Positions 33,909 through 39,630 of a stretch of DNA of 64,000 nt are shown one piece after another. Made by a program: the position numbers and the translations under genes. Numbering within the stretch: the first letter of the stretch is position 1; every line of letters starts with the position of its first letter. Source of the stretch: Nannocystaceae bacterium (GTDB lineage: Bacteria > Myxococcota_A > Polyangia > Nannocystales > Nannocystaceae); contig JAIBBS010000013.1 of the NCBI GenBank assembly GCA_019694555.1, positions 1 through 64,000 on the forward strand. Reading direction: 5' to 3'. The notes beneath the pieces are model-generated. The model ran no database searches. It saw only the letters and a list, made by a program, of their open reading frames with translations, and was not told where the DNA came from.

Positions 33909-34511
33909 TCAGTTGGTCTTGGCCTTGATCACGACCTCGCCACCTTGGTTGGTGAGCGCGGAGATCGGCGAGATGTTCTCGGCGATCCAGATCTGGTCGT
34001 CCTGGCCGTTGTAGCCGGTGGGCAGCTGCGGCGAGACGCGCACCGTGGGGTCCTGGCAATCCGCGGTGACGGCGGTCGGCAGCGGCCCGAACAGCAGCAC
34101 GCGACCCTCGAGCGGACCCTGCACCGCGTACTCGACGGTGAGGTGCGGCGTGCCCATCGACAGCTCTTGGTTGATGTCGATGATCGAGCAGTCGGCCTGC
34201 GAGCGCTCGAGGTCCTCGCACAGGCGATCCTTCCACGCCTCGCCACCGTCGTCGTGCGTGCCGAACACCAGGCCGCCATCGGGGCCGCCTTGCTGCGCGT
34301 CGGGGTTCGCGTCGTAGTAGTCGCGCAGGCAGGTCTCGTAGTCCATCGAGACGATCGCGCGCGCGGTCGAGACGTACGGGTCCATGGCCTGCGACTCACC
34401 GCGCACGAACTTGAGCTTGATGTAGCCGTTGGTGAGGGGCGTCGGATCGTCGGTGCAACCCGAGACGACGACGGCGGCGAACACAGCGGCAGCGAGACGG
34501 ACGGAGCTCAT
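33909..34511 (-). CDS. Lipoprotein of unknown function
   Basis: A 200-residue lipoprotein (signal ending VVSGC, Cys19). The mature protein contains CLRDYYDANPDAQQGGPDGG and three further Cys, with an otherwise ordinary soluble composition and no low-complexity linker, unlike most lipoproteins here. No domain is recognised. A CAGACT box lies 10 nt upstream of the ATG. It ends beside the palindromic element. Confidence 0.72.
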   Translation of the reverse strand: MSSVRLAAAVFAAVVVSGCTDDPTPLTNGYIKLKFVRGESQAMDPYVSTARAIVSMDYETCLRDYYDANPDAQQGGPDGGLVFGTHDDGGEAWKDRLCEDLERSQADCSIIDINQELSMGTPHLTVEYAVQGPLEGRVLLFGPLPTAVTADCQDPTVRVSPQLPTGYNGQDDQIWIAENISPISALTNQGGEVVIKAKTN

Positions 34512-34747: not shown

Positions 34748-36706
34748 TTGCGGTTGTCGCGCAGCTTCGCCCTTCGCACCATGCTCACCGCCGTTCCTCC
34801 CGCCTCTGCACGCGCATCGTCCTCGCGAACCCACGGCACCGTCGTTCGCGGCGCCCCGCTCGATCAGACGCTCGCGCGGCTCGACGCCTGGCTCGAGCCG
34901 TGGCGCGAGCGGGTGCGCGAGCGGGCCGAGACCGGTTCGCGCCGCGATCGTGCGGAGCAGGAACCGCCGTGGGCACTGCAGGTCCCCGACGTCGGACCCA
35001 GCGCCGAGGTGCTGCTGGCCGATCGCCTGCTGCATGCGCTGCTGCCCGCCGAGCGCGAGGGTCTGCTGACGTGGATCCGCGAGAGCCAGCACGAGTCGGG
35101 CGCGTGGCTCGACGTGCACGGGCGCCCGGATCTGTCGATCACGGCGCTGGCCTACTGGGCGCTCGCGGACGCCGGCGACGACCGCAGCGCCGAGGCCATG
35201 GTCAAGGCCGTGCGGGTGGTGCACGCGCTGGGCGGGGCCCAACGCGCCAACTTCGAGGTGCGGCTGTGGCTCGCGATGGCGGGCCAGATCGACTGGTCGT
35301 GGCTGCCCGCGATCCCGGCGGAGCTGTTCCTGCTGCCGGGCTCGATGCCGCTGTCGCCGGCCCGCTTCTCGCCGTGGGCCCGCGGTGTGCTCACGCCGTA
35401 TCTGCTGATCGCGCGGGCGCCCGCGCGGCTGCACCTCGCCGATGCCTCCGAGCTGCTGCTGCGCCGCGGCAACGAAGCGCTGGTGGCCCCGCGGCTGACG
35501 CGACCGGGCCTCGCGGGCGATCTGCTGCAGGCGTTCGATCGCACCGTGAAGCTGTCGCGCAAGCTGCCGCGCGGACCGCTGCCCCGCTGGGCGCAGCAGC
35601 GCGCGCAGGCGTTCATCGACGGCGCGCAGCAGGAACACGGCGGGTGGTTCTCGGCCCGGCCGACGCTGCTGTCGTTGCTGGCGCTGCGGGTGATGGGCGC
35701 GCGCTCCGATGATCCCCGCATCGCCCGCGGCCTCGCGTACCTGCGCGCGGCCCGGGGTCGCGTGCTCACGCCTGGCGGCACGGTCGCGCTGGCGCAGGGC
35801 CTGCTCGCCGCGCCGATGGGCGTGTGCGCGGGGCTGCTCGGCACCGGCCTGCTGCCGACCGATGCGGCGTGGCTGGTGCGCGAGCAGCTGCACGATCGCG
35901 GGCCGTGGCAGGCGCGTGCCGACGCGCCGGCCGGCGGTTGGCCGCTCGAGCCCGGCGCACGGGCGCACCTCGATCTCGCGGCGACGCTCGCCGTGCTCGA
36001 GACGCTCGCGCAGCTGCGTCCCGAGGATGCCGGCGCACCGGCGGCGTGGTCTGCCGCCCGCCGTGCGAGCGCGGTGCTGCTGGCGATGCAAGAGGGCAGC
36101 GGCGCGTTCGCTCGCTTCGAGCGCGGCGAGACCGAGGTGTTCATGCAGCGGCTGCCGTGGACCGACGGCGATCTGCTGGCCTACGGCCGCGATGGCGATG
36201 CCACGCACGTGCAGCTCACCGCCGATGCGCTCACGCGACTGTGTGCGGTGGGGTTGCGGGCCGAGGACGATCGCGTCGCCCGCGGCATCGCGTGGCTGCG
36301 CCAGGCCGCGACGCGCCGCGATCCCCCGGGCTTGTCGACCAGCTGCGCCATCGCGCGCGCGGCCGCGGTGCTGTTGCCCGAGTCCGACGATCTGCGGGTG
36401 CAGACGGAGCGTCGCATCCGCAATCGTCAGCGCGACGACGGCAGCTTCGGCTCGCTGCTCGACACGGCGCTGGCGCTGCGCGCCCTGGTGGAGCTCGGCC
36501 ACACCTGCGTGCAGACCCAGCGCGCGGTGCGGCACATCATGGGCGCGGTCGAGCAGGCCGACGCCGGTCTCGGTCTGCAAGCCTTCGGCGGCGGCTTCGG
36601 CCTGTCGCCCGACACCGTCGATCCGACCGCGGCCGCGCGACACTGCGTGGCTGCGCTTCGCGCCTACGCCGTCGCGGCGTCGGCCGTCACGGAGCTGCGC
36701 GCATGA
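34748..36706 (+). CDS. Squalene-hopene/oxidosqualene cyclase family protein, atypical active site
   Basis: A 652-residue protein of about the length of bacterial squalene-hopene cyclases. The N-terminal half follows the family closely (residues 128-222: DLSITALAYWALADAGDD, LGGAQRANFEVRLWLAMAGQ, PAELFLLPG). QW-like repeats are at QHESGAW (114-120), QQEHGGW (294-300), QEGSGAF and QRDDGSFG. Where cyclases have GGW...DVDDT the sequence reads GGW...HLDLAAT (407-413), so only the first Asp of DxDD seems kept and the catalytic one is Ala in an ungapped alignment. It may be a cyclase with different chemistry or a binding protein. A TTG start at 34748 fits the -10 box; ATG 34781 is an alternative. The stop overlaps the next gene (ATGA). 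Confidence 0.82.
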   Translation: MRLSRSFALRTMLTAVPPASARASSSRTHGTVVRGAPLDQTLARLDAWLEPWRERVRERAETGSRRDRAEQEPPWALQVPDVGPSAEVLLADRLLHALLPAEREGLLTWIRESQHESGAWLDVHGRPDLSITALAYWALADAGDDRSAEAMVKAVRVVHALGGAQRANFEVRLWLAMAGQIDWSWLPAIPAELFLLPGSMPLSPARFSPWARGVLTPYLLIARAPARLHLADASELLLRRGNEALVAPRLTRPGLAGDLLQAFDRTVKLSRKLPRGPLPRWAQQRAQAFIDGAQQEHGGWFSARPTLLSLLALRVMGARSDDPRIARGLAYLRAARGRVLTPGGTVALAQGLLAAPMGVCAGLLGTGLLPTDAAWLVREQLHDRGPWQARADAPAGGWPLEPGARAHLDLAATLAVLETLAQLRPEDAGAPAAWSAARRASAVLLAMQEGSGAFARFERGETEVFMQRLPWTDGDLLAYGRDGDATHVQLTADALTRLCAVGLRAEDDRVARGIAWLRQAATRRDPPGLSTSCAIARAAAVLLPESDDLRVQTERRIRNRQRDDGSFGSLLDTALALRALVELGHTCVQTQRAVRHIMGAVEQADAGLGLQAFGGGFGLSPDTVDPTAAARHCVAALRAYAVAASAVTELRA

Positions 36707-38208
36707 AACCCACGGGAGCCCACTACGACGTCGTCATCGTCGGCGCAGGCCTGGCCGGCTGCGCCGTTGCCCGCGCGCTGACGCGGGCGGACACCACCGC
36801 GCGCCGTCGCATCCTGGTGGTCGATCGCTACCCCGGCGTGCACCCGCGCTTCTCGGGCGAGTGGATCCATCCCCGCGGCGCGGCCGTGCTCGATGCGCTG
36901 GGCTTCGGCGACGCGCTGCGTGCGGCCGGGGCCATCGACGTCGACGGCTTCGCGGTGTTCGAGCACGCCGACGCGACGCCGGTCGAGCTGCCCTACGCCG
37001 ACGTCACGACCGAGGTGCCGCAGGGCCTGTCGGTGCACCACAAGGTGCTGGTGCGGACCATGCGGCGCGCGCTGGCCGACGATCGCATCGAGCTGGTCGA
37101 GGGCCTCGCGGCCTGCGAGCTGCGCCGCGACGGTGACGGCCGCATCTGCGGCGTGGTGTTCGAGGACGGCGAGGGCCACACCTGCGAGGTCGCGTGCGAC
37201 GTGCTGATCGCGGCCGACGGCAAGGGCAGCACGGTGCGCAAGCTCGCCGGCATCGCCGATCGACGCGACACCGTCGGCTTCACCGCCGGCGTCGAGGTCG
37301 TCGACGCGACGCTGCCGGTGCCGGGCCATGCCCACGTCATGCTCGGCGCGTGGGGTCCGGTGCTCGCGTACCCGATCCTGCGGCGCGCCGACGGCAGCAT
37401 CGTCACGCGCGTCACCTTCGATCTGCCCAAGGACCTGCCGGTCAAGGGCGAGGCGATCAAGCAGTACCTGCTGCGCGCGTTCGTGCCGTTCATCCCCGCG
37501 CCACTGTCGGGCCAGGTCGCCGCCGCGATCGTCGCGCGTCGCGGCCCGCTCGAGATGGCGCCGACGGTCGACCTGCCGGCACCGCCGGCGGTGCAGCCCG
37601 GGCTCGCGCTGGTCGGTGACGCCGCGGGTTGCTCGCACCCGATCACCGCCAGCGGCATGACCATGTGCCTGCGCGACGCCGAGACCCTGGGCGAGCAGGC
37701 ACGCCGACGCGCCGACGCGCCGATGGGCGAGCCGTGGCTCGACGACGAGTCGCTGCATCGCTACTGCGTCGAGCACGATCGCTACGTGCCCACGCGGCAG
37801 GCGCTCGCGACCGCGATCTACGAAGCGTTCCGCGGCGAGACCGAGGGCGCACGCGCGATCCGTCGCGCGCTGTTCGACTACTGGCACAGCGGCGCGACCG
37901 CGCGCCGGCGATCGATGTCGCTGCTGTCGTGCGCGGAGCGGCGACCGTCGGTGTTCCTCTCGGAGTACCTGCGCGCGGCCGGCCACGCGCTGGGCGGCAG
38001 CTTCGTGCCGCGCCACGCGTGGCACTTCCCGGTCGCCGATCGCATGCGCCAGGCTCGCGGCGCCGCCTCGCTGGCGCGCGACAAGCTGGGTCTGGTCGCC
38101 AACGTGGTCTGGGCCCAGCTGCGGCCCGGCTGGCTGCGCCACTCGTGGGCGCGGCTGCCGTGGCCCCGCCGGCCCGACGAGACCGAACCGATCGCCGGCC
38201 GCGACTGA
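36703..38208 (+). CDS. Squalene-epoxidase-like FAD monooxygenase
   Basis: A 501-residue group E flavin monooxygenase-like protein. It has the FAD Rossmann motif VIVGAGLAGC (11-20), GEWIHPRGAAVLDALGFGD (52-70; squalene epoxidases have GE-L-QPGG-x-x-L-x-x-LG), the DG motif ADGKGSTVR (171-179), and GDAAGCSHPITASGMTM (305-321), close to the GDA-x-x-x-RHPLTGGGMT motif of squalene epoxidases. The C-terminal LFDYWHSG ... LLSCAERRP segment also parallels that family. It would insert oxygen into a polyprenyl double bond at the membrane. The start overlaps the cyclase-family gene by 4 bp, so the pair is translated together. A geranylgeranyl-reductase-type activity is an alternative. Confidence 0.82.
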   Translation: MKPTGAHYDVVIVGAGLAGCAVARALTRADTTARRRILVVDRYPGVHPRFSGEWIHPRGAAVLDALGFGDALRAAGAIDVDGFAVFEHADATPVELPYADVTTEVPQGLSVHHKVLVRTMRRALADDRIELVEGLAACELRRDGDGRICGVVFEDGEGHTCEVACDVLIAADGKGSTVRKLAGIADRRDTVGFTAGVEVVDATLPVPGHAHVMLGAWGPVLAYPILRRADGSIVTRVTFDLPKDLPVKGEAIKQYLLRAFVPFIPAPLSGQVAAAIVARRGPLEMAPTVDLPAPPAVQPGLALVGDAAGCSHPITASGMTMCLRDAETLGEQARRRADAPMGEPWLDDESLHRYCVEHDRYVPTRQALATAIYEAFRGETEGARAIRRALFDYWHSGATARRRSMSLLSCAERRPSVFLSEYLRAAGHALGGSFVPRHAWHFPVADRMRQARGAASLARDKLGLVANVVWAQLRPGWLRHSWARLPWPRRPDETEPIAGRD

Positions 38209-38373: not shown

Positions 38374-39630
38374 GTGGGCGCACGCGTCCTCGTCGTCGAT
38401 GACGATCCGTGGATCCTCCGGATGGTCAGCGCGACCCTGGAGAAGAAGAGCTACGTCGTCGACACCGCACGCGAGGGCCGACAGGCGCTCGAGCGCGCGC
38501 GTGCGATCCGACCCGACGTGATCATCTCCGACGTGATGATGCCGGTGATGGACGGCTGGACCTTCGTCCAACAGCTGCGCGCGATCCCACAGCTTGCGAC
38601 GATCCCGGTCATCTTCCTCACCGCGCTCGGCAAGGACGAGGCACGGCTGCGCGAGCTGGGACTTTCGCCCGACGACTACCTCGCCAAGCCGTTTCGCTTC
38701 GCCGATCTCGAAAAGCGCGTGGCCTCGGCGCTGGCCAACAACCAAGGTGCGGGCAGCTACCAGACCAACTCGGGCGCGTTCCCCAGCACGGCCACGCCTG
38801 CGCCGGGCATGCCCGCAGCCGCAGCACCGCGCGAGACCACGCCGCCGCCCGGTCCCGGTCGCGACGCTGCACCGGAGGCACCGCCGCCGTATCCGCCGCC
38901 GTATCCGTATCCGCCGCCACCGGGCTATCCGCCGCAGCCTGCCGGCTACCCGCCGCAGCCGTATCCGCCGTATCCCGGCTTCCCTGCGGGTGCGCCGTAT
39001 CCGTATCCGCCGGGCTATCCCGCACCGCCGCCGGGCTACCCGCCCGCGGCCGCGCCGTATCCGTATCCGCCGCCTCCGGCCGCGCCCGCACCCGCACCGC
39101 CGGTCGCGGCACCGATCCCACCGACGCCGCTGCCGACGACGGTGCCGCACGTCGGCCCCGGCGCGGCCACGCCGACCGCACCGCTGCCGAGCGTCGCTCC
39201 GGTCGCGAGCCCACGCGTGGGCCCGCCGGTGGTCGAGCAGCCCTCGCACGTCACGCCCTCGGGCTCGTTCCCGGCGCAGCGTCGCACCACCGCGATGAGC
39301 GGTCGGCTCGAGCAGCTGGGCCTGTCGAGCCTGCTCGTGATGATGGAGATGGAGCGCAAGGACGGCGTCATCACGCTCAAGGAGCTCGAGTCGGGCGCGG
39401 TCGGCCGCATCTTCCTGCGCACCGGCCAGGTGGTCTCGGCGCGCATCGATGCGCGGCCCGATCTCGACGGACGCCAGTCGGTCTACACGATGCTCACGTG
39501 GCGCGCGGGCGCGTTCTCCTTCAACGCGATGGAGGTCGACATGGAGGACACCGTGCAGGCGACCACGACGCATCTGTTGATGGAAGGCGCGCGGCTCATC
39601 GACGAGGCCAACCGCGGCAGCGATGTCTGA
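38374..39630 (+). CDS. Response regulator with Pro/Tyr linker and DUF4388 (PATAN-like) domain
   Basis: A 418-residue protein with a GTG start. Residues 1-120 form a receiver domain with acidic pocket Asp9-Asp10, phospho-acceptor Asp53, Thr83 and Lys105 all present. Residues about 165-255 are a Pro/Tyr/Gly repeat of the type PYPPPPGYPPQP. Residues about 295-418 match the DUF4388 domain found after receivers in myxobacteria (GRLEQLGLSSLLVMMEMERK, GRIFLRTGQVVSARI). No DNA-binding or enzyme domain is seen, so it signals through protein contacts, for example in motility or polarity. The next gene overlaps by 8 bp. Confidence 0.9.
   Translation: MGARVLVVDDDPWILRMVSATLEKKSYVVDTAREGRQALERARAIRPDVIISDVMMPVMDGWTFVQQLRAIPQLATIPVIFLTALGKDEARLRELGLSPDDYLAKPFRFADLEKRVASALANNQGAGSYQTNSGAFPSTATPAPGMPAAAAPRETTPPPGPGRDAAPEAPPPYPPPYPYPPPPGYPPQPAGYPPQPYPPYPGFPAGAPYPYPPGYPAPPPGYPPAAAPYPYPPPPAAPAPAPPVAAPIPPTPLPTTVPHVGPGAATPTAPLPSVAPVASPRVGPPVVEQPSHVTPSGSFPAQRRTTAMSGRLEQLGLSSLLVMMEMERKDGVITLKELESGAVGRIFLRTGQVVSARIDARPDLDGRQSVYTMLTWRAGAFSFNAMEVDMEDTVQATTTHLLMEGARLIDEANRGSDV

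Follow-up and report, generated by a model that had tools for sequence, protein, structure and literature searches.

A possible non-catalytic, cyclase-fold partner of squalene epoxidase in Nannocystaceae

Nannocystaceae are soil and marine bacteria that produce complex sterols, in Enhygromyxa salina as far as cholesterol, and whether eukaryotic sterol genes may have come from them has been a matter of discussion. We analysed a stretch of 64,000 nucleotides from a bacterium of this family (hereafter the window), in which two overlapping genes encode the proteins P1 and P2. P1 has the fold of a squalene-hopene cyclase (SHC) and lacks its catalytic acid; P2 resembles squalene epoxidase (SE). The reading that we favour, giving it about an even chance, makes P1 a pseudocyclase without catalytic activity, acting as a partner of P2, the host's putative sterol-pathway epoxidase. 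The two genes and the parts of P1 on which the argument depends are as follows.

34781 to 36706, forward strand: P1, SHC-fold protein without the catalytic acid, 641 amino acids (Pfam, AlphaFold2 (AF2) model, orthologues)
35972 to 35986, forward strand: DLAAT, residues 398-402 of P1, in place of DVDDT 374-378 of SHC (alignment)
36107 to 36130, forward strand: FARFERGE, signature of the P1 family, residues 443-450, in place of WGAYDVDN of SHC (invariance among orthologues)
36703 to 38208, forward strand: P2, squalene epoxidase, a flavin adenine dinucleotide (FAD) monooxygenase, 501 amino acids (PF08491, phmmer, AF2 model)

The stop codon of P1 and the start codon of P2 share the ATGA at 36703-36706, and both open reading frames lie on the same strand, which bears out the overlap proposed in an earlier reading made from the DNA letters alone (the sequence-only reading). 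The open reading frame given there for P1 also stands, but its start at TTG 34748 (652 amino acids) is probably wrong: ATG 34781 is preferred because orthologues start with ML... at the position of that ATG, and the motif HLDLAAT, residues 407-413 when counted from the TTG, becomes 396-402.

P1 belongs to the triterpene cyclases by sequence as well as by fold, as had been proposed. It matches the Pfam domains SQHop_cyclase_N (8e-50) and SQHop_cyclase_C (1.4e-17), both above cut-off, and carries four QW-like repeats, two of them with Phe; its AF2 model (predicted local distance difference test, pLDDT, 81; predicted template modelling score, pTM, 0.83) has the SHC structure 2sqc as its closest Foldseek match in the PDB, with a template modelling (TM) score of 0.75. 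It falls below the NCBI equivalog cut-off for SHC (TIGR01507, 146 versus 431 bits) and below that for oxidosqualene cyclase (OSC; TIGR01787, 113 versus 322.7 bits), and the DCTAE motif was not found in it. In a tree with SHCs and OSCs, P1 forms a deep, separate clade on a long stem (1.8 changes per site). Three SHC-like proteins without DxDD (L169, L170 and L172, from genomes G181, G256 and G283 of two other families) were considered as relatives of P1 and rejected: they form another clade, read DxDST with D376 kept and D377 replaced by Ser, and do not lie beside an epoxidase.

The residue correspondences between P1 and SHC given here come from a profile-profile alignment, in which DLAAT falls on D374-V-D376-D377-T378 of the Alicyclobacillus SHC. 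The sequence-only reading had the first Asp kept and the proton-donating Asp changed to Ala, and in this it was right, but the loss goes further: D376 and D377 are both Ala, and most of the active-site lining is gone as well. Neither H451 (which falls on D482 of P1) nor D447, the partners of the acid, is conserved, and the same is true of W312, D313, F365, Y267, F437, W485 and W489. What P1 shares with SHC is W133, W169, P263, D374 and T378, together with an aromatic residue at position 420. Across 23 P1 orthologues D374 and T378 are invariant, and column 377 is Ala, Ser, Thr or Gly in every one, never acidic. Column 376 holds Asp in six orthologues, Leu in five, Ala in four, Arg in three, Glu in two and Ser, His or Lys in one each; it has changed state at least ten times on a P1 tree built without the acid columns and ranks in the top 5% of core P1 columns for variability. 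P1 also has invariant motifs of its own, FxRxERGE and PRG among them, and F443, R445, E447, R448, G449 and E450 are identical in 17 of 17 aligned orthologues and differ in SHC.

The ratio of nonsynonymous to synonymous substitution (dN/dS) is 0.16-0.24 for P1 and 0.15-0.24 for P2, so that both genes are under purifying selection. A strain-specific mutation or a pseudogene was rejected in view of this ratio of about 0.2 and of the clade-wide loss. A dN/dS for the sterol cyclase came from untrimmed open reading frames and was set aside. From the positions lost, the positions that are invariant in P1 alone, the retained fold and a dN/dS like that of P2, it therefore follows that P1 is an actively maintained protein without known catalytic machinery.

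The pair is a feature of the whole family. Of 29 genomes of the order, 25 encode a P1 orthologue, and a P2-type epoxidase accompanies it in all of these but one, which is 65% complete. A scan of 84,980 bacterial and archaeal species genomes with P1-specific patterns returned 23 loci, namely 22 P1 loci (Nannocystis, Plesiocystis pacifica, Enhygromyxa salina and Paraliomyxa among them) and one ordinary-looking SHC relative. The profile search for the pair elsewhere in Myxococcota that the sequence-only reading had suggested finds it again across Nannocystaceae, and no P1-type protein outside this family in a phylum-wide sample; chance is excluded because of this recurrence across the whole family. 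In 20 of 20 named loci P1 immediately precedes P2 on the same strand, with a gap of -20 to +82 nucleotides (one frameshifted assembly excepted) and an ATGA overlap in seven loci besides the window. This linkage, together with the joint absence described below, supports the pair as one unit. With catalytic positions lost, purifying selection and linkage to a partner whose activity is predicted, P1 has the marks of a pseudoenzyme. In Nannocystis pusilla Na p29 (L114) frameshifts break both P1 and P2, probably through sequencing errors.

The identity of P2 as a squalene-epoxidase-like enzyme was correctly recognised from the start. It matches PF08491 (1.4e-30, 106.8 bits versus a cut-off of 20.1) and human SQLE in phmmer (1e-33), and its AF2 model has the SQLE fold (TM 0.79, E 9e-30 against human squalene epoxidase 6c6n), with the next family far behind; the FAD-binding motifs GxGxxG, DG and GD are present. 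Its clade includes SEs from two other families of the class. At the site that we take to be Tyr195 of human SQLE it has Phe, as do nearly all bacterial SEs compared. In the host genome no SE-family gene other than P2 turned up, and in each P1 genome where P2 was found no second strong SE-family match accompanied it; G011 shows a weak second match. An unlinked OSC with an intact WPVSDCTAE, which contains the DCTAE motif, is present in 24 of the 25 P1 genomes, the exception (G019) being a draft that is 88% complete; thus the sterol cyclase is encoded elsewhere than at the P1-P2 locus. The host's own copy lies on contig C57 with this motif intact. In these cyclases the Val before SD suggests, from sequence, that lanosterol may be the product (criterion of PMC4919349 and PMC10152446). 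Genes for ERG24-type reductases and of the squalene-synthase family are also present. Strains of Enhygromyxa and Plesiocystis, including P. pacifica and E. salina, produce sterols (PMC4919349, PMC10202945), and these two species carry the P1-P2 pair (L105-L107). P2 is thus probably the sterol-pathway epoxidase, by elimination, since no other strong SE-family gene accompanies the unlinked intact cyclase, and by the sterols known from relatives.

We propose the following mode of action. P2 would make 2,3-oxidosqualene, which the unlinked OSC on contig C57 would convert to the sterol skeleton. P1 keeps the two-domain, membrane-binding fold of a triterpene cyclase but would be unable to start cyclisation by protonation; produced jointly with P2, probably in matching amounts, it would serve P2 as an obligatory or helping partner. 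Most likely it would be a membrane-associated protein with a hydrophobic cavity that retains squalene, 2,3-oxidosqualene or both at the membrane and transfers them to or from P2, or else, within the same view, tunes the activity of P2. Among the possibilities raised by the sequence-only reading, binding of a polyprenyl substrate by P1 on behalf of the epoxidase is the best fit; the binding itself, the contact with P2 and the direction of the help are what we infer.

Genomes without P1 show how closely the pair is held together, and here the two neighbouring genes are needed.

33909 to 34511, reverse strand: divergent lipoprotein neighbour, 200 amino acids, lipobox VSGC (synteny)
38374 to 39630, forward strand: response-regulator-like open reading frame, downstream neighbour (adjoins the lipoprotein gene in three genomes without P1-P2)

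G003 and G013 have an OSC, no P1 and epoxidases from other clades, that of G013 being fused to its OSC, so P1 goes with the P2-type epoxidase and not with sterol synthesis as such. No epoxidase, cyclase or P1 was found in G006 (97% complete) or G007 (54% complete). In G003, G006 and G013 (L208, L206 and L207) the lipoprotein and response-regulator-like genes, which bound the P1-P2 cassette, adjoin directly in a region that is otherwise collinear. In a carB tree G006 and G013 fall inside the family, an indication that these two lost P1-P2 as a unit; the placement of G003 is uncertain. The lipoprotein gene sits 181-454 bp upstream of P1, in divergent orientation, in 21 of 21 assessable loci. Its product has no Pfam match and belongs to an undescribed family with conserved Cys residues and paralogues in several genomes. 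We considered it as a third functional partner and set it aside as a syntenic neighbour: the family also occurs in G006, where no sterol cyclase or epoxidase was found, and the site is collinear without P1-P2. Probably it marks the fixed site of the pair and has no part in the mechanism.

Elsewhere in Myxococcota epoxidases are joined to related modules in a single chain. SE-OSC fusions in one frame occur in several families (L185, L138, L139 and L148), and another family of the same class has fusions of an SE, a QW-repeat segment and a squalene/phytoene synthase (L187-L190, 1024-1215 amino acids). The QW-repeat linker of the latter is degenerate and its match short (54-115 columns), and we claim no homology to P1 itself.

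L185, 541 to 3975, reverse strand: SE-OSC fusion, 1145 amino acids, genome G013
L187, 1232 to 4303, reverse strand: SE-QW-repeat-synthase fusion
L188, 902 to 4216, reverse strand: SE-QW-repeat-synthase fusion
L189, 623 to 3997, reverse strand: SE-QW-repeat-synthase fusion
L190, 1526 to 5170, forward strand: SE-QW-repeat-synthase fusion

L187-L190 place the squalene-making and the squalene-epoxidising steps on one chain. These arrangements show that tethering of epoxidases to cyclase-fold or squalene-making modules recurs in the phylum, an independent hint in favour of the partner reading. We suggest tentatively, at somewhat less than an even chance, that a whole triterpene-cyclase clade has turned into a non-catalytic subunit of squalene epoxidase in Nannocystaceae, as one case of Myxococcota tethering the epoxidase to cyclase-fold modules that channel squalene into the oxygen-dependent step of the sterol pathway.

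Several points weigh against P1 as a non-catalytic partner of the sterol-pathway epoxidase. The sterol role of P2 rests on elimination, and a non-homologous alternative epoxidase is possible; we know of no such partner for other bacterial epoxidases. Six of the 23 P1 members have Asp at 376, possibly an ancestral state or residual activity. Moreover, 54 residues are invariant in P1 specifically, several of them charged (PRG 263-265, ERGE 447-450, DDR 496-498), and these could form a new catalytic site instead of an interface. Such a site would make P1 an active cyclase-fold enzyme whose acid has moved elsewhere, perhaps to the invariant D398, E447 or E450, forming a triterpenoid from squalene, oxidosqualene or another polyprenyl substrate supplied by P2. 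The strong conservation, the invariant Asp at 374, the P1-specific invariant acids and the retained W169, P263 and aromatic residue at 420 are in keeping with it, and the pair would then be a self-contained two-step pathway, much as in the sequence-only reading, where epoxidase and cyclase might make a new oxygenated triterpenoid. We nevertheless set such a pathway aside as first choice and regard the relocated acid as distinctly unlikely. The canonical cyclase is elsewhere, on C57, with P2 as the only strong match for the epoxidase that feeds it, so that the product of P2 is needed there; beyond the acid, P1 lacks its hydrogen-bond partners H451 and D447, and W312, D313, F365, F437, W485 and W489 are lost too, so that little is left of the lining that stabilises cations; the acid column varies without constraint; and where the epoxidase type is missing or replaced, the pair goes with it.

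The same genetics as for a pseudocyclase partner would result if P1 were a sensor or feedback regulator, an allosteric subunit that turns P2 on or off when its former cyclase cavity takes up a sterol, squalene or oxidosqualene. Co-translation at 1:1 would suit a regulatory subunit, and present data do not distinguish delivery from regulation, but no precedent is known in this fold, and we think it unlikely. P1 might instead be a bystander, a former cyclase retained for some structural or lipid-binding task unconnected with P2 and tied to it by history only. This would agree with a locus that is vertically inherited and whose lipoprotein and response-regulator-like neighbours are collinear too. 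We find it improbable: P1 and P2 are absent jointly while these neighbours remain, the genes overlap or nearly overlap across deep branches, and P1 is missing from two genomes with a changed epoxidase type. Very improbable, in our view, is that P2 is an epoxidase or hydroxylase of another lipid, which P1 would handle. Related FAD monooxygenases are many and squalene epoxidation by P2 is a prediction, but human squalene epoxidase is its best match in structure and sequence by a wide margin, no second strong SE-family gene accompanies P2 where a sterol cyclase is present, and known sterol-producing species carry the P2 type (PMC4919349, PMC10202945).

If P1 is indeed a pseudocyclase partner, an acid-less partner protein would be an unusual function for the cyclase fold, and it would explain why the SE-adjacent 'cyclase' in Nannocystaceae genomes is not the sterol cyclase. 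The pair also bears on how the epoxidase of this family receives its insoluble substrate. No description of a non-catalytic triterpene cyclase turned up in our literature search, although earlier notice is possible; the passages found in PMC6226438 give numbers of 'squalene/hopene cyclases' for E. salina and P. pacifica and make no mention of a missing acid. Wei et al. (2016; PMC4919349) list as lanosterol synthases in their Table 4 Ga0008035_04852, which adjoins the epoxidase 04851, and PPSIR1_02843, near 02838. From their place near the epoxidase these two are probably P1 orthologues, and P1 may thus have been listed there as a sterol cyclase. Table 2 of the same paper gives other locus tags, Ga0008035_02275 and PPSIR1_04883, for the OSCs, so that the two tables disagree for Nannocystis exedens and Plesiocystis pacifica.

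With SHC (TIGR01507; PDB 1sqc and 2sqc) P1 has in common the two-domain alpha-barrel fold, a conserved N-terminal domain, the QW-like repeats and W133, W169, P263, D374 and T378; unlike SHC it is without DxDD, the H451/D447 pair, W312, F365, F437, W485 and W489, has invariant motifs and a clade of its own, and is encoded with an epoxidase. With OSC and lanosterol synthase (PDB 1w6k) it shares superfamily and fold (TM 0.70) but not DCTAE, the DCTAE-type cyclase of the host being the other gene on C57. P2 is like human SQLE in its fold, its FAD motifs and the GDAxxCxHPITASGMT region, and differs from the usual squalene epoxidase in being paired with P1 and not with a sterol cyclase. Like the SE-OSC pairs and fusions of other bacteria, P1-P2 encodes an epoxidase together with a cyclase-fold protein; there, however, the cyclase motif is intact, whereas here it is lost and the sterol cyclase lies elsewhere.

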